Origin: Thermoplasmata archaeon | GTDB lineage: Archaea; Thermoplasmatota; Thermoplasmata; Lutacidiplasmatales; UBA184 | Assembly: GCA_021816865.1 (NCBI GenBank) | Contig: JAKAWX010000001.1 | Coordinates: 1-40,793, forward strand | DNA: 40,793 bases | Direction: 5' to 3' | Shown: positions 2,693 to 10,671 of the stretch, piece by piece | Numbering within the stretch: the stretch's first letter is position 1 | How the letters are laid out: every line of letters starts with the position of its first letter | The notes under the pieces: model-generated | Seen by the model: the letters and a program-made list of their open reading frames with translations, nothing else | The model's database searches: none | Told to the model about the DNA's origin: nothing | Program-made: the position numbers and the translations under genes

Positions 2693-3304
2693 CTAGGCGA
2701 TCCCGTCGGAGGGGGGTTCGGCTGCGGGCGAAACACCGGGTCCGCCGCGGTAGAACCCCTTGATCTCCGCGACGCGCGCCCACGCGGGGAACCGTCGCTC
2801 GAGGAGGGCATCGAGCGAGTAGCGCGCCCGGCCGAACGAGGCGTCGAGGATCATGAGCCCGATGAAGACCCCGGCGTAGACGATCCCCGTGCCGATGTCG
2901 GTCGACCCCGGACCGTACGGCCCGCCGAACCCTTCGGGGACCGCCCAGATGAAGAAGCTGAGGAGGGCGCCCCCGGTGTAGGCGAGCTTGCGGACGAACC
3001 CGAAGACGAGCGCGAGGCCGAGAAGGAGCTCGAGCGATCCCGTGAAGTAGACCCAGAACGCCGGGTCGGAGTTCACCTGGTTCGCCCAGAAGGCGAACCA
3101 CGGACCGAGCCAGGCCGGCTGCCCCGACCCCGAGACGCTGCCCGCGAACGAGCTTACGAACCCTGGCGCGAACTTGAGCGCGCCGTCGAGGAGCCAGATG
3201 ATGCCGAACCCGACGCGGAAGACGTCGCGCAGGCTCTTTGCGTTCCGGACGAACCAGCCGTCGAGGCGTTCCTGGGCGGCGCCGACCGTTCCCGCCGCCC
3301 GCAT
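2693..3304 (-). CDS. DoxX/DoxD-like membrane protein
   Basis: A 203-residue protein with four hydrophobic segments, near residues 30-50, 82-105, 108-130 and 135-155, in the pattern of the DoxX/DoxD family. Family members include the small subunit of archaeal thiosulfate:quinone oxidoreductase and several redox-associated membrane proteins. Recognisable pieces are the first-helix WLLDGALKF and the second-helix GSLELLLGLALVFGF. It starts 73 bases after sufB and runs the same way, so it is probably the last gene of the suf transcript. The context suggests a link to sulfur or redox handling, but the exact substrate cannot be read from sequence. The start is an ATG at 3304; no separate promoter was seen. 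Confidence 0.75.
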   Translation of the reverse strand: MRAAGTVGAAQERLDGWFVRNAKSLRDVFRVGFGIIWLLDGALKFAPGFVSSFAGSVSGSGQPAWLGPWFAFWANQVNSDPAFWVYFTGSLELLLGLALVFGFVRKLAYTGGALLSFFIWAVPEGFGGPYGPGSTDIGTGIVYAGVFIGLMILDASFGRARYSLDALLERRFPAWARVAEIKGFYRGGPGVSPAAEPPSDGIA

Positions 3305-3377
3305 GGAGAGGTTGTGGCGGAGGTCCGACCGTGGTGGCGCGCGATCCCGATACGCGGCGAGAGCTTCGGCGGAGAGC

Positions 3378-4787
3378 CTACCCGACGGCCCCCGCCATCT
3401 CGAGCTGGATCAGCCGGTTCAGCTCGAGGGCATAGTCGACGGGCAGCTCCTTCGCGAACTCGGCGAGGAATCCCATGAGGATCAGGTGGATCGCGTCGGA
3501 TTCGTTCAGGCCCCGGCTCATCAGGTAGAAGATCTGCTCTTCGCCGATCTTCCCGACGACCGCCTCGTGCGTGATCGTCGCGTCCTCCTCGTGGATCTCG
3601 TTGTACGGGTACGTGTCCGAGCGCCCCCGCTCGTCGGGAAGCAGCGCGTCGCACCGGACCGCCGCCTTCACGCCGGTCGCGCCGGGCGCCACGTGGAGGA
3701 GACCGCGGTAGCTCGTCTGGCCGCCGCGGATCGCGATCGACTTTGCGATGATCTTGCTCGAGGTGTCCGGCGCCGAATGGACCGCCTTCGCCCCGGAGTC
3801 GATGATCTGGCCCTCGCTCGCGAACGCGACGGAAAGGATGTCGGCGCGGGCCCCGCGCCCCTTGAGGTAGACCGAGGGGTACTTCATCGTCACCTTGGAC
3901 CCCATGTTCCCGTCAACCCACTCGACCAGCGCGCCTTCCTGGGCGACCGCGCGCTTGGTGACGAGGTTGTAGACGTTCTTCGACCAGTTCTGGACGGTCG
4001 TGTACCGGACCTTGGCGAACGGTTCCGCGACGACTTCGACGACCGCCGCGTGCAGCGAGTCGGTCGAGTAGATCGGGGCCGTGCATCCCTCGACGTAGTG
4101 GACCTTGGCACCCTTGTCGGCGATGATCAGCGTCCGCTCGAACTGCCCGACGTTCTTCGCGTTGATGCGGAAGTACGCCTGGAGCGGGATCCCCGCGTCG
4201 ACGCCAGGGGGGACGTACACGAAGCTGCCGCCCGACCAGACCGCGCTGTTCAGGGCCGAGAACTTGTTGTCGTTGTACGGGACGATCCGGCCGAAGTACT
4301 TGCGCACGATCTCGGGGTGCTCCTTCACCGCCGTGTCCGTATCGCAGAAGATCACGCCTTTCGCGGAGAGGTCCTCCCGGATCTTGTGGTAGACGGTGCC
4401 ACTGTCGTACTGCGCCCCCACGCCGCCAAAGTACTCGCGCTCGGCCTTCGGGATGCCGAGCTTCTCGAACGTGTTCTTGATGTCGTCGGGCAGGTCCTCC
4501 CACTTGCGCTTCGTCTCGCCTTCGAGGAGCGGGTTCGCGTAGTACGTGTAGGAGTCGAAGTCGATGTCGGAGAGGCTCGGGCCCCAGTCGGGCATCGGGC
4601 GCTCGACGAAGTGGTCATAGGCCCGAAGGCGGTATTCGAGCATCCAGTCGGGCTCGTCCTTGAAGTGGGAGATCTGCTCGACGGCGTACCGGGAGAGCCC
4701 CTTCGCGATCCGGAGGCGGTACGTCTCGGGGTTCTTGAAATCGTAGCGAGTGTAATCGAGGGGTGTGATATCTCCGGACGGTGCCAT
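3378..4787 (-). CDS. sufB: Fe-S cluster assembly scaffold SufB
   Basis: A 469-residue SufB, the scaffold subunit that accepts sulfur from SufS and assembles the cluster with SufC and SufD. The whole length matches the family: an N-terminal helical part with YRLRAYDHF near residue 53, EYFGGVGAQYDSG near 118, a central beta-helix including WSGGSFVYVPPG near 184, and a conserved end with YLMSRGLNESDAIHLI near 421. Two cysteines sit where functional SufB cysteines are expected: EGCTAP (C235) and VRCDALL (C379, the E. coli C405 region). The start is an ATG with a GAGGAG ribosome-binding site about six bases upstream and a TATA box at 4818-4826. It lies 152 bases after sufS and so can be transcribed separately as well as from the upstream sufC-sufS promoter. 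Confidence 0.96.
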   Translation of the reverse strand: MAPSGDITPLDYTRYDFKNPETYRLRIAKGLSRYAVEQISHFKDEPDWMLEYRLRAYDHFVERPMPDWGPSLSDIDFDSYTYYANPLLEGETKRKWEDLPDDIKNTFEKLGIPKAEREYFGGVGAQYDSGTVYHKIREDLSAKGVIFCDTDTAVKEHPEIVRKYFGRIVPYNDNKFSALNSAVWSGGSFVYVPPGVDAGIPLQAYFRINAKNVGQFERTLIIADKGAKVHYVEGCTAPIYSTDSLHAAVVEVVAEPFAKVRYTTVQNWSKNVYNLVTKRAVAQEGALVEWVDGNMGSKVTMKYPSVYLKGRGARADILSVAFASEGQIIDSGAKAVHSAPDTSSKIIAKSIAIRGGQTSYRGLLHVAPGATGVKAAVRCDALLPDERGRSDTYPYNEIHEEDATITHEAVVGKIGEEQIFYLMSRGLNESDAIHLILMGFLAEFAKELPVDYALELNRLIQLEMAGAVG

Positions 4788-4817
4788 GGACTCCTCGGGA
4801 ATTCCATCACCCCGGCG

Positions 4818-4826
4818 TATTTAAAT
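4818..4826 (-). promoter_or_regulatory. TATA box of sufB
   Basis: On the minus strand the sequence reads ATTTAAATA, an AT island in GC-rich surroundings, about 35 bases upstream of the sufB ATG. This predicts a leader of about ten bases containing the GAGGAG ribosome-binding site. Confidence 0.65.
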
Positions 4827-4939
4827 GAGAGGTCGCCCCGGCGGCGACACCCGGACCCGCCACGGCGGGCTCGCCACCGGGAGCGGTGCTGTCAGAGGCT
4901 TCGCTACAAACGGTTCCGGACGGCGGGGCGCGGCGTCGC

Positions 4940-6196
4940 TCACTTCGCTCGGGCCGGCGGCGCCTCGGGGGCGCCGAAGAGGCGGTCGACGTCGACCAGC
5001 GCATCCACGAAGAGGTCGATCTCGGCCTCGGTGTTGTACAGGTACGGGCTCGCGCGCGTGAGCGCGGGGACGCCCAAGCGGTCCATGAGCGGTTGGGCAC
5101 AGTGGTGGCCCGCCCGGACGCAGACGCCTTTCGCGTCGAGCAGGCTCGCGATGTCGTGCGGGTGGGCGCCTTTAAGGGCGAACGAGAGGACCGCTTCCCG
5201 CCGGGCCGGGTCGGCGGGACCGACGATCCGCAGGCGGCTGTCGAGCCGTTCCGTCGCGCGCGAGATCGCGCGCCGCAGAAGGTGGGATTCGTGGTCGTGC
5301 ATCTCCTCCCACCCGACCGCTTCCAGGTAGTCGAGCGCGGCGGAGAGCCCCACGGCGCCTCCGACGTTCGGCGTGCCGGCCTCGAACTTCGCCGGCGATT
5401 CCCGGTAGTCGACCCGGTCGAGGTGGACCTCGCGGATCATCTCGCCTCCGCCCATGTACGGCGGTAGGGCTTCGAGGAGGTCCGCCCGGCCCCAGAGCAC
5501 CCCGATCCCCATCGGGCCGAGGGTCTTGTGCCCGGAGAAGGCGAGGAAGTCCGCGCCGAGCGACGCGACGTCGATCGGCCGGTGGGGGGCCGACTGGGCC
5601 GCATCCACCACGACGAGCGCCCCGACGGCGTGCGCGCGGTCCGCGACCTCGCGCACCGGGTTCACCGTCCCGAGCACGTTCGACACGTGGGTCAGCGTCA
5701 CGACCTTCGGTCGGCGCGAGAGCAGCCGGTCGAGCTCGTCGAGCCGTAACTGCCCGTCCTCGTCGATCCCCACGAACTCGAGGTCGATGCCCACGCTCCC
5801 GCGCAAAAGGTGCCAGGGAACGATGTTCGAATGATGCTCCATCACGGTCGAGACGACGAGGTCGCCGCGGCCGAGGGTCCCCCGGCCGAGCGACGTCGCG
5901 AGCAGGTTGATCGCCTCGGTCGTGCCGCGGAGGAAGACGATCTCGGACGGGCTCGATGCGTGCAGGAACCGCGCGACGCGCGCGCGCGCCGCCTCGTAGG
6001 CGTCGGTCGCCTCGACGCTGAGCGCGTACACGCCCCGGTGGACGTTCGCGTTCGACTCCGAATAGTACCGGCTCTCCGCGGCGATCACCGACGCGGGCTT
6101 TTGGGAGGTCGCCGCAGAATCGAGGTAGACCAGCGGGCGCCCCCCGAACGTTCGGGCGAGGATGGGGAAGTCCCGTCGGATCCGCTCGACGTCCAT
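4940..6196 (-). CDS. sufS: cysteine desulfurase SufS
   Basis: A 418-residue PLP-dependent group II cysteine desulfurase that takes sulfur from L-cysteine for transfer to the SufBCD scaffold. Visible landmarks are LDSAATSQKP at residue 25, the EHHSN histidine pair (121-122), the cofactor aspartate in DAAQ (D198), the PLP lysine in SGHKT (K224) and the catalytic cysteine in RAGHHCAQP (C366). Length and motif spacing are normal for SufS/CsdA. It starts 34 bases after sufC, indicating cotranscription. No SufE or SufU partner was seen in the window, so the sulfur acceptor is either SufB directly or encoded elsewhere. Confidence 0.95.
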   Translation of the reverse strand: MDVERIRRDFPILARTFGGRPLVYLDSAATSQKPASVIAAESRYYSESNANVHRGVYALSVEATDAYEAARARVARFLHASSPSEIVFLRGTTEAINLLATSLGRGTLGRGDLVVSTVMEHHSNIVPWHLLRGSVGIDLEFVGIDEDGQLRLDELDRLLSRRPKVVTLTHVSNVLGTVNPVREVADRAHAVGALVVVDAAQSAPHRPIDVASLGADFLAFSGHKTLGPMGIGVLWGRADLLEALPPYMGGGEMIREVHLDRVDYRESPAKFEAGTPNVGGAVGLSAALDYLEAVGWEEMHDHESHLLRRAISRATERLDSRLRIVGPADPARREAVLSFALKGAHPHDIASLLDAKGVCVRAGHHCAQPLMDRLGVPALTRASPYLYNTEAEIDLFVDALVDVDRLFGAPEAPPARAK

Positions 6197-6230
6197 CGCG
6201 CCTCTTCCCCCCGGAAGGGCCCGGGAGGGT

Positions 6231-7007
6231 TTAGGTCGTCGCCTCGGGGAGGAGGCCGCGGATCGCTTCGTATCCTTTCGCTTCGAGCTCCTCCGCGAGC
6301 TCGCGGCCGCCGCTCTTCGCGATCTGACCGTCGACCATCACGTGGACCCGGTCGGGTTTCAGGAACTTGAGGATCCGTTGGTAGTGCGTGATCACGAGGA
6401 TCCCCGCATCGGGCCGGTGCAGCTTCGCCACGGTCTCGCCGACCGATCGCACGGCGTCGATATCGAGCCCCGAATCTGGCTCGTCGAGGATCGTGAACAG
6501 CGGGTGGAGCGTCGCCATCTGCAGGACCTCGACCCGCTTCTTCTCGCCGCCCGAGAACCCTTCGTTGAGCGAGCGCTTGAGGAGCGAGGTGTCCATCCCG
6601 AGGTACCCGAGGTGCGTCGCGAGCTCGCGGTCGAACTCCGCCGTGTCGGCGGTCTGCGCCGTGTGGCGTTGCATGTACGCGGTCCAGAGGAATTTCGAGA
6701 GGGAGAGCCCCGAGACCTCCTGCGGGTATTGGAACCCGAGGAAGAGACCGGCCCGCGATCGCTGGTCGACGCTGAGCTTGAGCAGGTCCGCGCCGTCGAG
6801 GAGGGCGCGGCCCCGCGTTACCTTGTATTTGGGGTGACCCATCAGGGCGTAGGCGAGCGTGCTCTTGCCCGACCCGTTCGGTCCCATCAACGCCGTGAGC
6901 TCTCCGCTTGCGAGCGAGAGGTTGACCCCTTTGAGGATCTCCTTGCCCGCGACCTCGGCGTGAAGGTCCTCGACGAGGAGCGTGTGGTGCGTCGTCGGAG
7001 CGCTCAT
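6231..7007 (-). CDS. sufC: Fe-S assembly ATPase SufC
   Basis: A 258-residue ABC-type ATPase that drives SufB/SufD conformational change during cluster assembly; it is cytoplasmic, not a transporter. Walker A is MGPNGSGKST (41-50), the Q-loop is FQYPQ near 92, the signature is FSGGEKKR (151-158), Walker B is TILDEPDSGLD (172-182) and the switch histidine is in ITHYQR (H208). The sequence EGFSGGEKKRVE is diagnostic of SufC rather than of a permease ATPase. It is first in the leftward suf transcript and is divergent from the regulator gene. The ATG at 7007 follows a TATA-like element at 7036-7046, giving a leader of only a few bases. Confidence 0.96.
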   Translation of the reverse strand: MSAPTTHHTLLVEDLHAEVAGKEILKGVNLSLASGELTALMGPNGSGKSTLAYALMGHPKYKVTRGRALLDGADLLKLSVDQRSRAGLFLGFQYPQEVSGLSLSKFLWTAYMQRHTAQTADTAEFDRELATHLGYLGMDTSLLKRSLNEGFSGGEKKRVEVLQMATLHPLFTILDEPDSGLDIDAVRSVGETVAKLHRPDAGILVITHYQRILKFLKPDRVHVMVDGQIAKSGGRELAEELEAKGYEAIRGLLPEATT

Positions 7008-7035
7008 GTGTATCGTACGAAATGGAGCCGATACC

Positions 7036-7064
7036 GTTATTTAAGCATGGCGCGGTGTGTAAAT
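7036..7064. promoter_or_regulatory. divergent sufC / sufR control region
   Basis: Between the divergent sufC and the regulator gene there is an AT-rich island in otherwise GC-rich DNA. For sufC (minus strand) it offers CTTAAATAAC at about 7036-7046, roughly 33 bases before the ATG. For the regulator (plus strand) TTATTTAAG or TGTAAATTTG could act as TATA box. The word GTGTGTAAAT at 7055-7064 is identical to the right arm and flank of the inverted repeat in the sufD promoter (979-988). This makes the region a likely binding site for the adjacent regulator; that is inference from the shared word. Confidence 0.55.
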
Positions 7065-7097
7065 TTGTACGGGGTCGCACGCGGGCCCCGCCCGAAG

Positions 7098-7745
7098 ATG
7101 ACCGTCGCCGCAGAGGAACTGCTCGAAGGGACCCGAGGACGCATCCTCGAGGAGCTCGCCTCCGCTCCCCGCACCGCACGGGACCTCTCGAAGACGCTCG
7201 GTATCCAGGAGAGCGCCGCCCGGGGGCACCTCGACCGGATGCAGGAGCGGGGTCTCGTGGTCCCGTCCTTCCGCAGGGAAGGGGTCGGTCGCCCCCGGAA
7301 GCGGTACGTGCTCACTCCGCTCGGGCAGGACCTCTTCCCGAAGCAGTACGACCGGATCCTCGACTCGGTGGTGAGCGAGCTCCTCGCGCGCGAAGGGGAA
7401 GGGTACGTGAGCGCGCTGTTCGCCGAGGCGGGCCGCCGGATGGCCCGCGAGGTCGCCGAGGAGATCCCGAAGCGCGGGAGCCTTGCCGAACGCGCCCGCG
7501 ATCTTGTCGCCGCGCTGAACCGGCTCGGCTTCCGCTGCTCGGCGACCGTCTCTCCGCAGGGCGAGGTCCGGATCACCCGGACGAACTGCGTCTTCCGGCA
7601 CAGCGCGCTCTCCCACCCCTACCTCCTCTGCGAGGTCTTCGACAAGCACCTCACCGAAACACTCCTCGGCCAGGTCGGGGTCGACCTCGAGGACTCGATC
7701 GGACGCGGAGGGATGCGGTGTACGCATCTGATCCCGCTTCGGTAA
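7098..7745 (+). CDS. sufR: SufR-like winged-helix regulator with cysteine cluster
   Basis: A 215-residue regulator of the COG2345/SufR type. Residues 12-75 form a winged helix-turn-helix (TARDLSKTLGIQESAARGHL, then the wing GRPRKRYVLT). The C-terminal domain has four cysteines, C147, C164, C178 and C208, the last three spaced as in family members that bind a metal or an Fe-S cluster. In cyanobacteria SufR binds Fe-S and represses suf; here the gene sits directly divergent from sufC, so the same role is likely but inferred. I chose the ATG at 7098; an in-frame ATG at 7047 lies within the promoter island and would add MARCVNLYGVARGPRPK, so it is less likely. It overlaps the downstream cysteine synthase by 28 bases and therefore leads that operon. 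Confidence 0.82.
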   Translation: MTVAAEELLEGTRGRILEELASAPRTARDLSKTLGIQESAARGHLDRMQERGLVVPSFRREGVGRPRKRYVLTPLGQDLFPKQYDRILDSVVSELLAREGEGYVSALFAEAGRRMAREVAEEIPKRGSLAERARDLVAALNRLGFRCSATVSPQGEVRITRTNCVFRHSALSHPYLLCEVFDKHLTETLLGQVGVDLEDSIGRGGMRCTHLIPLR

Positions 7746-8683
7746 CCGGCGGGGCACCCCTCGGTCCGAGAGAGAGGACGGGGGCTCCCCGGATCGACGA
7801 CCCGTTCGTCCGGACCGTTGGCCACACGCCGCTCGTGCCGCTTTCGCGCTTGGCGGCCGGTGGCCGTTTCGAACTCTTCGCCAAGGCGGAGTTCCTCAAC
7901 CCGACCGGCTCGGTGAAGGACCGGGCCGCGCTCGGGATCGTCCGGCGGGCGATCGAGCGCGGCGAGCTCGGAAGGGGGCGCACGCTCCTCGACGCATCGA
8001 GCGGCAACACGGCGGTCGCCTACGCGATGCTCGGGGCCCGCATCGGCTTCCCGGTCGAGATCGTCCTTCCCCGCAACGCCCATCCCGAACGCGTCGTCCG
8101 CATCCTCGGCTACGGCGCGACGATCGTCTACACGGATCCTCTCGAAGGGACCGACGGGGCCCAGCGCGAGGCGCGGCGCCTCGCCGAGTCGGAGCCCGAA
8201 CGGTACCACTACGCCGACCAGTACAACAACCCGGCGAACCCGGGGACCCACTACGCGACCACGGGCCCCGAGATCTGGCGGCAATCGGGAGGACGCGTCA
8301 CCCACTTCGTCGCGGGCGTCGGGACCGGCGGCACGATCTCGGGAACGAGCCGGTACCTGAAGGAACGCTCGCCGACGCTTCGCACCGTCGGGGTCGAGCC
8401 GGCCGGGCCGCTCCACGGCCTCGAGGGGTTGAAGCACCTCGCGACCGCGCTCCGCCCCTCGACCTACGACGAACGCCTCGTCGACGAGACCGTGCGCGTC
8501 GAGACCGAGGACGCCGAAGCGATGCGCCGCCGCCTCGCGACGGAGGAGGGACTCGCGGTCGGCTCATCCGCCGCCGCGGCCGTGGTCGCGGCGCTCCGGG
8601 TCGGCGCGGCGACGTCGGGGGCGGTCGTCGTCACGATCCTGCCGGACGGCGGCCACTCGGCGGCCGTCGGAGCGTCGGCATGA
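7718..8683 (+). CDS. cysM: cysteine synthase, CysM-like
   Basis: A 321-residue PLP-dependent fold-type II enzyme of the cysteine synthase family, which makes cysteine from an activated serine and a sulfur donor. The PLP lysine is in TGSVKDRA (K67), the substrate loop is SSGNT (94-98), and the phosphate loop is GTGGTISG (202-209). The form LDASSGNTAVAYAM resembles the CysO-dependent CysM of actinobacteria, and the neighbouring peptidase and CysO-like fusion support use of a protein thiocarboxylate as donor. The only start codon before the domain is GTG at 7718, with GGAGG five bases upstream, inside the end of the regulator gene. This implies translational coupling. The substrate (O-phosphoserine versus O-acetylserine) cannot be decided here; no serine acetyltransferase is nearby. 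Confidence 0.88.
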   Translation: MYASDPASVTGGAPLGPRERTGAPRIDDPFVRTVGHTPLVPLSRLAAGGRFELFAKAEFLNPTGSVKDRAALGIVRRAIERGELGRGRTLLDASSGNTAVAYAMLGARIGFPVEIVLPRNAHPERVVRILGYGATIVYTDPLEGTDGAQREARRLAESEPERYHYADQYNNPANPGTHYATTGPEIWRQSGGRVTHFVAGVGTGGTISGTSRYLKERSPTLRTVGVEPAGPLHGLEGLKHLATALRPSTYDERLVDETVRVETEDAEAMRRRLATEEGLAVGSSAAAAVVAALRVGAATSGAVVVTILPDGGHSAAVGASA

Positions 8684-9147
8684 GGGCGGTCCGTCTATCG
8701 GAGGAGCTTCTCCGCGCCATGCAGGACCACGCGCGAGCGACCTACCCCGACGAGTGCTGCGGTTTCCTCGTGGCCCGCGAGTCGACCGAGGTCGCCGCGG
8801 GACCCCGCGAGGTCGTGGGGGTCGAGCCCGCGCCGAACGAATTCGAGGGCGAGCGACGGCGCCGCTTCCTCCTTCGGCCCGACGAGCTCCGCAGCGCGGA
8901 GGCGCGCGCGGCCGAGCGCCACGAGGTCGTGGTCGGGTTCTACCACTCCCACCCGGACCACCCCGCGCGACCGTCCTCGTTCGACCAGGAGCACGCTTGG
9001 CCCTGGTACACCTATCTCGTGCTCGGAGTGACCGCCCACGGGGCCGGCGCGCTGGGCGCGTTCGAACTTGACCCGCGCTCGAGGGAATTCCGAGAGGTTC
9101 CCCTCGCCCGAGGGGAGGGGGCGCGCCGCGGCGACGCCGTGTCGTAG
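8680..9147 (+). CDS. JAMM/MPN+ metallopeptidase, Mec-like
   Basis: A 155-residue JAB1/MPN+ zinc peptidase. The full metal and catalytic motif is present: Glu in YPDECCGFLV (E25) and HSHPDHPARPSSFD (H89, H91, S99, D102), the EXnHxHX7SXXD pattern. In Mycobacterium the relative Mec cuts the CysO-cysteine product to free cysteine. Here the gene starts with ATG overlapping the stop of the cysteine synthase gene by four bases and precedes a CysO-like fusion, so a role in the same pathway is likely. Because the CysO-like domain is not free at its C-terminus, this peptidase may also be needed to release it (inference). Catalytic residues are intact, so it should be active. Confidence 0.85.
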   Translation: MRAVRLSEELLRAMQDHARATYPDECCGFLVARESTEVAAGPREVVGVEPAPNEFEGERRRRFLLRPDELRSAEARAAERHEVVVGFYHSHPDHPARPSSFDQEHAWPWYTYLVLGVTAHGAGALGAFELDPRSREFREVPLARGEGARRGDAVS

Positions 9148-9192
9148 GGGTAAGCGAGAACGTATGTGCATCGATTCCGAAACGGAGGAGGG

Positions 9193-10671
9193 ATGACCGC
9201 GGTCACAGTGAAGGTGCCGATGGCGCTGCGCCCGCTCGTCGGCGGGCGCGCCGAGACGGCCGTGGTGGGAGCGACGGTCGGCGAGCTCGTCCGCCGCCTC
9301 GCCGACGACCATCCCGAGCTCAAGCGCCACCTCTTCTCTCCCGAAGGAAAGCTGAGGAGCTTCGTCACGGTCTACCTGAACGACCAGGACATCCGCTATC
9401 TCGCGAAAGAGGCGACGCCGGTGGCCGACGGTGACGTCGTCTCGATCGTACCCGCGATCGCCGGCGGCCTGCCGGAGGGGCCGGGCCCGTCCGCCGGGCC
9501 GGACCCTCCCCGGGCCGCGGGGGCGATGCTCCCGAGCTTCTCGCCGTCCGACCTGCGGCGGTACAGCCGTCACCTCCTTCTCCCCGAGGTCGGCGTCGCG
9601 GGCCAGCGCAGGCTGCGGGACGCGAAGGTCCTCCTGGTCGGCGCGGGAGGTCTCGGCGCCCCGGCGGCGCTCTACCTCGCGGCCGCGGGAGTGGGGGAGA
9701 TCGGACTGGTCGATTTCGACGCGGTCGACCTCTCGAACCTCCAGCGCCAGGTCCTCTACACGACGGACGACGTCGGCCGTCCGAAGCTCGAAGCGGCCCG
9801 GCAGCGTCTCGAGGCGCTCAACCCGGGCGTGCGGGTCGTGGCGCACGGGGAACGCCTCACGAGCGAGAACGCGCTCGACGTGGTGCGCCCGTACGACGTG
9901 GTCGTCGACGGGACGGACAACTTCCCCACGCGCTACCTCGTCAACGACGCGTGCGTGCTGCTCGGAAAGCCGAACGTCTACGGCTCGATCTACCGGTTCG
10001 AGGGCCAGGTGAGCGTCTTCGACGCGTCGCGCGGGCCGTGCTACCGGTGCCTCTACCCGGAGCCGCCGCCTCCCGACCTCGTGCCGTCGTGCGCCGAAGC
10101 AGGGGTGCTCGGGGTCCTGCCCGGGCTGGTCGGTGTCCTCCAAGCGACCGAGACGCTCAAGATCCTGCTCGGTACCGGCACCCCGCTCGTGGGCCGTCTC
10201 CTCCTCTACGACGCCCTCGACCTCCGCTTCCGCGAGCTCACGCTCCGCAAGAACCCGCACTGCGTGCTCTGCTCGAGCGAGGCGACGCAGACCGGGCTCA
10301 TCGATTACCCGGCGTTCTGCGGCGTCCCCGCGCCCGGGGGCGAGTCGAGCGGCGTTCCGTCGATCGAGGCCGAGGAGCTCGCGCGGGCGCTCGCTTCGCC
10401 CGACCCGCCGCTTCTCGTCGACGTGCGCGAGCGCGGGGAGTGGGACATCTCGCACCTCCCCGGGGCGCTCCTCATCCCGCGGGCCGAGCTCCCCGAACGC
10501 GTCGACGAGATCACCCGCGCCCGGGAAATCGTCCTGTACTGCCGGGTCGGCGACCGGTCCGCCCGGTCCGCCCGATGGCTCCTCGACCTCGGCTTCACGC
10601 ACGTGCGCAATCTGGCCGGTGGCCTGCACGCGTGGGCTTCCCGCGTCGACCCGAACTTCCCGGTGTATTGA
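9193..10671 (+). CDS. CysO-like carrier / E1 adenylyltransferase / rhodanese fusion
   Basis: A 492-residue three-domain protein. Residues 1-92 are a ubiquitin-like sulfur carrier of the CysO/MoaD type, with VYLNDQDIRYL near 60 and the end VSIVPAIAGG, very close to mycobacterial CysO and ending in the Gly-Gly (91-92) that is activated as thiocarboxylate. A proline/glycine linker (93-115) joins it to an E1-like MoeB/MoeZ adenylyltransferase: GAGGLGA near 150, DFDAVDLSNLQRQ near 174, zinc pairs CYRC (283, 286) and CVLC (357, 360), and catalytic C300 in VPSCAEAGVLG. Residues 388-492 are a rhodanese with active cysteine C450 in YCRVGDRSA. The ATG at 9193 has GGAGGAGGG just upstream. An internal ATG at 9526 (residue 112) could start the MoeZ part alone, but it has no clear ribosome-binding site. 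The fused Gly-Gly would need cleavage to work as a carrier. Confidence 0.9.
   Translation: MTAVTVKVPMALRPLVGGRAETAVVGATVGELVRRLADDHPELKRHLFSPEGKLRSFVTVYLNDQDIRYLAKEATPVADGDVVSIVPAIAGGLPEGPGPSAGPDPPRAAGAMLPSFSPSDLRRYSRHLLLPEVGVAGQRRLRDAKVLLVGAGGLGAPAALYLAAAGVGEIGLVDFDAVDLSNLQRQVLYTTDDVGRPKLEAARQRLEALNPGVRVVAHGERLTSENALDVVRPYDVVVDGTDNFPTRYLVNDACVLLGKPNVYGSIYRFEGQVSVFDASRGPCYRCLYPEPPPPDLVPSCAEAGVLGVLPGLVGVLQATETLKILLGTGTPLVGRLLLYDALDLRFRELTLRKNPHCVLCSSEATQTGLIDYPAFCGVPAPGGESSGVPSIEAEELARALASPDPPLLVDVRERGEWDISHLPGALLIPRAELPERVDEITRAREIVLYCRVGDRSARSARWLLDLGFTHVRNLAGGLHAWASRVDPNFPVY

Follow-up and report, generated by a model that had tools for sequence, protein, structure and literature searches.

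A sulfur carrier fused to its activating enzyme and a rhodanese in Thermoplasmatota and bacteria, with a linked JAMM peptidase as its probable processing protease

A predicted pro-carrier

The window, i.e. the whole stretch of DNA analysed here, comprises 40,793 nucleotides of contig JAKAWX010000001.1 from a Thermoplasmata archaeon. It encodes a protein in which a CysO/ThiS-like sulfur carrier, a MoeB/ThiF-type activating enzyme (E1) and a rhodanese are fused, and a gene for a Mec-like JAMM metallopeptidase lies directly upstream. Judged from sequence comparison, the fusion is probably a pro-carrier that is cut after Gly92 by this JAMM, and the freed carrier would then be activated by the E1. 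E1 adenylation requires a free glycine carboxylate on the carrier. As the terminal Gly-Gly of the carrier is kept even though it is internal in the fusion, a cut is to be expected. The JAMM is the most likely cutter; Mec, which it resembles, hydrolyses the bond after the Gly-Gly of CysO, releasing cysteine. The features concerned are listed below.

9193..9468, + strand: CysO/ThiS-like carrier domain, residues 1–92, ending in Gly91-Gly92 (Pfam ThiS)
9469..9555, + strand: variable linker, residues 93–121; proposed cut site Gly92/Leu93
9556..10323, + strand: MoeB/ThiF-type E1 domain, about residues 122–377 (Pfam ThiF, Foldseek)
10345..10671, + strand: rhodanese domain and stop, with the Cys450 codon at 10540–10542 (Pfam Rhodanese)
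8680..9147, + strand: Mec-like JAMM/M67 metallopeptidase, candidate processing protease (Pfam Prok-JAB 1.4e-22)

Architecture of the fusion protein

The protein of 492 amino acids is encoded by one open frame on the forward strand, from the ATG at 9193 to the TGA at 10671. A Shine-Dalgarno (SD)-like sequence, GGAGGAGGG, was found immediately 5' of this ATG, and an alternative GTG start at 9166 would add nine residues. Three Pfam domains were detected, all above the curated cut-off: ThiS at residues 6–92 (1.4e-12), ThiF at 124–357 (7.8e-87) and Rhodanese at 393–483 (9.8e-20).

The carrier part matched PDB entry 3dwg_C with an E value of 1.2e-16 (listed as 9.5 kDa culture filtrate antigen cfp10A), which we take to be CysO of Mycobacterium tuberculosis. 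A further match was 4n6e_B, in keeping with a beta-grasp ThiS fold. Some resemblance to SAMP1 was seen as well (NF041918, below the cut-off). The free C-terminal Gly-Gly of a CysO-type carrier is not encoded as such, Gly91-Gly92 being internal, and would arise only through a cut. The closest PDB sequences of the E1 part were ThiF, Uba4 and MoeB, and Foldseek aligned this domain to ThiF (1zfn) and MoeB (1jw9) with a target template modelling (TM) score of 0.95–0.97. The MoeB model NF006444 scored above its cut-off on the fusion and the MoeZ model NF005902 below. The order of a ThiF domain followed by a rhodanese with an active-site cysteine is that of a MoeB/MoeZ-type E1-rhodanese. As the NCBI model labels such proteins MoeB, the carrier domain is easily missed.

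In an alignment of 57 fusion sequences (57 of the 64 fused loci described below, partial and near-duplicate rows excluded), Gly91-Gly92, Cys283, Cys286, Cys357, Cys360 and Cys450 were invariant. The first four cysteines presumably form the E1 zinc site. Hence, the original prediction held for the single three-domain frame, for the carrier ending in Gly91-Gly92 ahead of a linker and for the E1 and rhodanese cysteines. An AlphaFold2 model of the fusion, with the 57 fusions as input, had a mean predicted local distance difference test (pLDDT) score of 89.6 and a predicted TM score of 0.83. The pLDDT fell below 50 at residues 93–101 and 108–111, just past the Gly-Gly, as would be expected of an exposed, flexible junction.

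An assembly error, chance or a lost stop was excluded as the origin of the fusion, as fusions 50–95% identical to that of the window occur in many separate genomes. Relatives with separate genes, which the original prediction had named as grounds for such an origin, do exist (G018, G024, G028 and G075), and they nest inside the fused ones.

Conservation of the Gly-Gly and the linker

In total, 91 loci were classified. Sixty-four Thermoplasmatota loci were fused (63 genomes, G025 having two), 6 had a separate carrier just upstream of the E1, 19 had none just upstream and 2 lacked the E1 on the fetched piece. The internal Gly-Gly closed the ThiS domain in 64 of 64 fused loci. The linker from the Gly-Gly to the RYSRH motif was 12–37 residues long and mostly variable. 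The conservation of the Gly-Gly and of the linker length, proposed earlier as a check, was thus upheld for the former. At the first linker position, 48 of 64 fusions had Ala or Ser, compared with 25% among linker residues from the third on. The second was Pro in 35 of 64, compared with 15%; both counts ignore relatedness among loci.

Co-occurrence with the JAMM gene

The JAMM had been predicted directly upstream of the fusion and was found there. Its motif residues Glu25, His89, His91, Ser99 and Asp102 were invariant in an alignment of 58 JAMMs (the window JAMM and 57 with a profile score above 60; that of G187 is truncated). The nearest PDB sequence was 2kcq, which was also the first Foldseek match, followed by the Pyrococcus furiosus JAMM1-SAMP2 complex 5lda.

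A JAMM gene was present within the locus in 57 of the 64 fused Thermoplasmatota loci. It lay directly upstream of the fusion except in G047 and G058, where it is downstream in the same run. Of the seven fused loci with no JAMM, three run into a contig end (G031, G078, G144), and the other four have sequence at the place in question (G009, G066, G113, G310). Six of these seven genomes (G009, G031, G066, G078, G113, G310) carry a JAMM elsewhere that falls outside the second-kind branch described below; in G144 (75% complete), only a second-kind JAMM was found. The unlinked JAMM adjoins a further carrier fragment on another contig in G031, and by eye it stands beside a CysM-like gene in G113 and G310. 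In G066, the JAMM and CysM genes sit on another contig. An open reading frame with a TnpB-type TNB domain (Pfam) lies upstream of the G066 fusion (L066, 18–1415, - strand).

The second kind of JAMM is unlinked and forms a fully supported branch of its own (13 examined). Its motif is HSHPSGA.[HRY]PS.AD, as in G000:C10:79426-79731 and its relatives L237-L243, L253 and L254. It is common in genomes of the genus and was not seen beside a carrier. Nine second-kind calls, eight from the genus and one from G382, come from a tree and the others from Pfam scores.

G018, G024, G028 and G075 form one branch nested among the fused loci in the tree. Their carriers are encoded separately, with the stop codon immediately after the Gly-Gly, and a PF14464 search found either nothing or a second-kind JAMM only (completeness 94%, 85%, 64% and 86%, respectively). 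Likewise, eight genomes of the family have an E1-rhodanese with no carrier just before it (G004, G030, G036, G065, G070, G071, G072, G382), and these yielded at most a second-kind JAMM. In G382, a carrier-like reading frame ending in Gly-Gly lies on the opposite strand to the E1-rhodanese, near a weak match to a pyridoxal phosphate (PLP) enzyme (L136, 2238–2402, - strand). A separate carrier just before the E1 in a JAMM operon was seen in G174 (L143); in its tail, Ile-Ala-Gly-Gly recurs three times up to the stop.

The presence of a carrier was compared with the presence of a JAMM in the locus using phylogenetically independent pairs on well-supported branches. Six pairs were available, and in 4–6 of them (mean 5.7) carrier and JAMM varied in the same direction, with a median p of 0.03 (range 0.03–0.125). 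The Thermoplasmatota tree left out G035 and G124, which are at contig ends, and seven distant E1s; the pair tests additionally left out nine near-duplicates.

Ends of separate carriers

MoaD served as a control in the same genomes. In the window genome, MoaD adjoins moaE (MoaE confirmed by Pfam). It was found in 74 of 78 genomes of the genus, and it ended exactly in Gly-Gly in 50 of 50 cases (the 30 best matches and 20 picked to include split and carrier-less genomes).

A second set was taken from a scan of named genomes, covering the best 80 of 570 confirmed relatives and hence biased toward close ones. After five Thermoplasmata loci had been removed (L157, L158, L159, L171, L185), it comprised 75 loci. 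Among the separate CysO-like carriers of this set, 22 of 25 had 1–14 residues past the Gly-Gly and are referred to as capped; a JAMM was present in the stretch for 19 of these 22. The three free Gly-Gly ends were those of L200 and L231, with a JAMM, and of L234, without one. In both sets together, 98 capped or fused carriers had a JAMM and 9 had none, and free Gly-Gly carriers had one in 2 cases and none in 6 (Fisher p 4e-5, in a test that ignores kinship; loci with fewer than 1300 bases before the E1 were excluded).

The caps vary. Nine Acidobacteriota loci have caps containing Cys (L172, L174, L182, L189, L190, L194, L202, L205, L218). L220 (Bacteroidota) has a lone Cys as its cap, and its encoded end Gly-Gly-Cys is identical to the carrier-cysteine product. 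A plasmid search with the JAMM gave two records. In Aliarcobacter, a plasmid-borne carrier two genes after a JAMM has one extra residue past the Gly-Gly. On the Aliarcobacter cibarius plasmid pACIB (L155), the CysM-JAMM-carrier run is interrupted by two insertion sequence elements. A family 2A encapsulin with a cysteine desulfurase cargo adjoins it, and the E1 region contains no annotated gene.

Weighing the explanations

Several observations weigh against processing by the JAMM. The split-carrier clade of the genus without the linked kind of JAMM counts as one event. Absences carry little weight, as most genomes are incomplete (64% complete in the case of G028). G140, of another family, has a free Gly-Gly carrier yet a JAMM elsewhere, and this JAMM groups with that of the fused G113 and not with the second kind; this speaks against a strict rule. 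Five JAMMs (G010, G025 second copy, G061, G081, G083) are divergent and fall outside the main branch of operon JAMMs (those of G010 and the second G025 copy were seen via reading frames and the profile, not by tblastn). In the second set, L200 and L231 have free Gly-Gly ends despite a JAMM in the stretch. No JAMM was found in the fetched stretches of L178 and L181 (fused) or of L196, L204 and L236 (capped), the rest of these genomes being unsearched. After correction for phylogeny, the association of caps with JAMMs left five independent pairs, of which the JAMM differed in one or two, always in the expected way, which is not significant. Moreover, the window linker begins with Leu-Pro, and Leu is unlike the usual Ala or Ser.

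The original prediction had left three options: a cut by the JAMM, an internal start or a carrier working while tethered. The cut appears to fit best, as the JAMM is present with the fusion and was not found in the genus clade with free Gly-Gly. Separate carrier and E1 proteins could also arise by internal initiation, or by frameshift or termination, and an ATG is indeed present in the window linker at residue 111 and in 18 of 64 linkers. A start codon of any kind with SD-like spacing occurs in only 5 of 64, however, and the first +1 and -1 stops are scattered over 7–115 and 14–257 bases (20 shortest of each). Internal initiation would also yield a free E1 but no free carrier. With a linker start that is not conserved, we give this explanation next to no probability. 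Nor is it at all likely that the carrier domain is never freed and acts as a tethered docking or regulatory module. E1s with a fused ubiquitin-like domain are described in the available part of PMC1779556, typically encoded with a separate ThiS, e.g. in Campylobacter. Tethering, however, leaves the invariance of an internal Gly-Gly unexplained, adenylation by established chemistry needs the free carboxylate, and four relatives in the genus use a free carrier.

The cut after Gly92 might instead be made by another protease or by the fusion itself, the JAMM serving only to free cysteine from carrier-cysteine. A Mec-like role alone would explain the JAMM in the many operons that have a CysM-like gene, and the protease acting on MoaX was left unidentified in the available part of its paper (PMC4326299). 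We consider this improbable. For 12 genomes of the genus with fusion and JAMM (G007, G010, G022, G025, G061, G063, G067, G068, G077, G081, G083, G084; incomplete, at 79–95%), the search for a CysM ortholog gave nothing closer than a general PLP synthase at 41–44% identity; the JAMM has thus been retained where the operon seems to lack its cysteine step. The same JAMM was not found where the carrier of the genus naturally ends in Gly-Gly. The freed carrier could also yield a product other than cysteine, e.g. by serving in tRNA thiolation or as a protein modifier, a reading that accepts the cut and overlaps with the preferred explanation. The 12 genomes without a CysM ortholog point this way, as do the resemblance to SAMP1 and an operon that faces suf genes. 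Against it, the CysM-like gene of the window runs into the start of the JAMM gene, and the gene order CysM-JAMM-carrier is common to the window and bacterial loci. Overall, a non-cysteine product is the less likely case, with an appreciable chance of being right. Cysteine is a plausible product in the window organism, and we are less sure of it elsewhere in the genus.

Proposed mechanism

From these data, we infer the following steps for processing by the JAMM. After translation, the JAMM would hydrolyse the peptide bond after Gly92, giving a free CysO-like carrier and an E1-rhodanese that starts at the linker. The freed Gly92 would be adenylated by the E1, and a persulfide on Cys450 of the rhodanese would convert it to a thiocarboxylate. 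The CysM-like neighbour could then use the thiocarboxylated carrier to form carrier-cysteine, and the same JAMM could hydrolyse this to cysteine. The released E1 may also activate the separate MoaD. The E1-rhodanese probably serves MoaD as well, because it is the only ThiF above the cut-off in the window genome (83% complete). Of the self-contained system in an archaeon that had been predicted, the archaeal host is supported, the nearest named relatives of the fusion (best 80 of 570) being Thermoplasmata archaea, and the self-containment probably does not hold.

A linked JAMM would loosen the need for a carrier to end in Gly-Gly, and the cap could be a few residues or a whole enzyme. It is possible, and we propose it tentatively, that JAMM-linked CysO-type carriers are in general inactive capped precursors, with the protease gating sulfur flow in a zymogen-like manner. 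If so, the cap would be one residue, a short and often Cys-rich tail or the activating enzyme itself. In the fused form, carrier and E1 would be born one to one, and the JAMM would set the supply of usable carrier.

Distribution of the fusion

In the genus of the window, 62 of 78 genomes matched the fusion at 1e-30. In a draw from the phylum, 181 of 389 genomes matched at 1e-50, most of them, among the matches listed, without the carrier part. In the second set, 28 of 75 loci were fused, 27 of them bacterial. The database search for the three-domain order proposed in the original prediction thus yielded 64 Thermoplasmatota and 28 other fused loci; two of the removed Thermoplasmata loci, L158 and L159, were also fused, both with a JAMM. 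The fused loci of the second set belong to Acidobacteriota, Gemmatimonadota, Chloroflexota, Ignavibacteriota, Elusimicrobiota, Kiritimatiellota, Verrucomicrobiota, Pseudomonadota (Moritella, Shewanella), KSB1, two unassigned bacteria and, by its record title, one Euryarchaeota archaeon. The idea of a system peculiar to archaea was rejected, as the same three-domain architecture occurs in many bacteria. The E1-rhodanese tree requires 12 changes between fused and separate carrier; therefore, fusion or fission occurred repeatedly.

Gene neighbourhood

The remaining genes of the neighbourhood are listed below.

7718..8683, + strand: CysM-like PLP-dependent cysteine synthase; overlaps the start of the JAMM gene, own start uncertain (Pfam PALP 8.2e-71)
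7098..7745, + strand: SufR-like winged-helix regulator at the head of the run, start uncertain (TIGR02702 SufR 7.8e-13, below cut-off)
6231..7007, - strand: SufC, divergent from the operon, a frequent neighbour (ABC_tran)
4940..6196, - strand: SufS-like cysteine desulfurase (Aminotran_5 5.5e-139)
3378..4787, - strand: SufB (SUFBD_core 5.8e-80)

Carrier, cysteine synthase, JAMM and E1-rhodanese are encoded together in the window, i.e. the gene set of the mycobacterial pathway is present. The best model for the CysM-like synthase was TIGR01138 cysM, yet below its cut-off, and its best PDB sequence match was O-acetylserine sulfhydrylase B (2jc3). At 2693–7745, the SufR-like regulator and the carrier operon diverge from sufC, sufS and sufB. 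SufR was present in 51 of 89 classified loci and was not found in G004, G009, G071 and G072. The divergent arrangement suggests a tie to iron-sulfur demand.

Comparison with known systems

The CysO-CysM-Mec-MoeZ pathway of M. tuberculosis has the same four kinds of protein, with O-phosphoserine and thiocarboxylated CysO as the preferred substrates of mycobacterial CysM. Mycobacterial CysO is made on its own and ends in Gly-Gly, whereas the window carrier is the N-terminus of its E1-rhodanese. In QbsE/QbsD and HcyS/HcyD, a JAMM strips one or two residues past the Gly-Gly of a sulfur carrier; the corresponding cap in the window is the E1-rhodanese.

The papers cited by PMC number were available in part, and statements about them refer to those parts. 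MoeZR serves both MoaD and CysO (PMC3227635). MoaX of M. tuberculosis undergoes cleavage at Gly82/Ser83 and depends on both glycines for its function (PMC4326299). DRJAMM, a JAMM, cleaves the natural MoaD-MoaE of Deinococcus radiodurans (PMC8832034). As in the window fusion, the carrier in these two proteins is the N-terminal part of a partner enzyme; the cut after its terminal Gly matches the one proposed here. The partner there is the acceptor MoaE, whereas here it is the activating E1. A Ubl-E1 fusion in Thaumarchaeota, which bacteria are said to share, likewise has a ubiquitin-like domain before the E1, and its C-terminal domain differs from that of the window fusion (PMC2948915).

Release of fused carriers by a JAMM was already proposed in 2006, when Iyer et al. 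suggested that a JAB might free fused ThiS/MoaD (PMC1779556), and it was shown for MoaD-MoaE (PMC8832034). Operon class 4c of Iyer et al. has the same gene set, namely ThiS/MoaD, E1-rhodanese, JAB and cysteine synthase. Its table row gives the E1 as fused to a rhodanese only, and the three-domain fusion is not described in the available part (PMC1779556). Searches of the open-licence literature at the level of listings and abstract openings (subscription papers being outside this scope) gave no recognisable report of JAMM processing of a ThiS-E1-rhodanese fusion. As far as these searches show, three things are new: a pro-protein of carrier, E1 and rhodanese, its spread, and the association of the JAMM with a capped C-terminus.

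The old prediction that JABs free fused ubiquitin-like carriers becomes a testable case with natural controls: fused loci with a JAMM, split loci without this kind of JAMM, and the MoaD carriers of these genomes. Prokaryotic JAMMs of this type would gain a second job, maturation, besides cysteine release, in parallel to the processing of ubiquitin precursors in eukaryotes.
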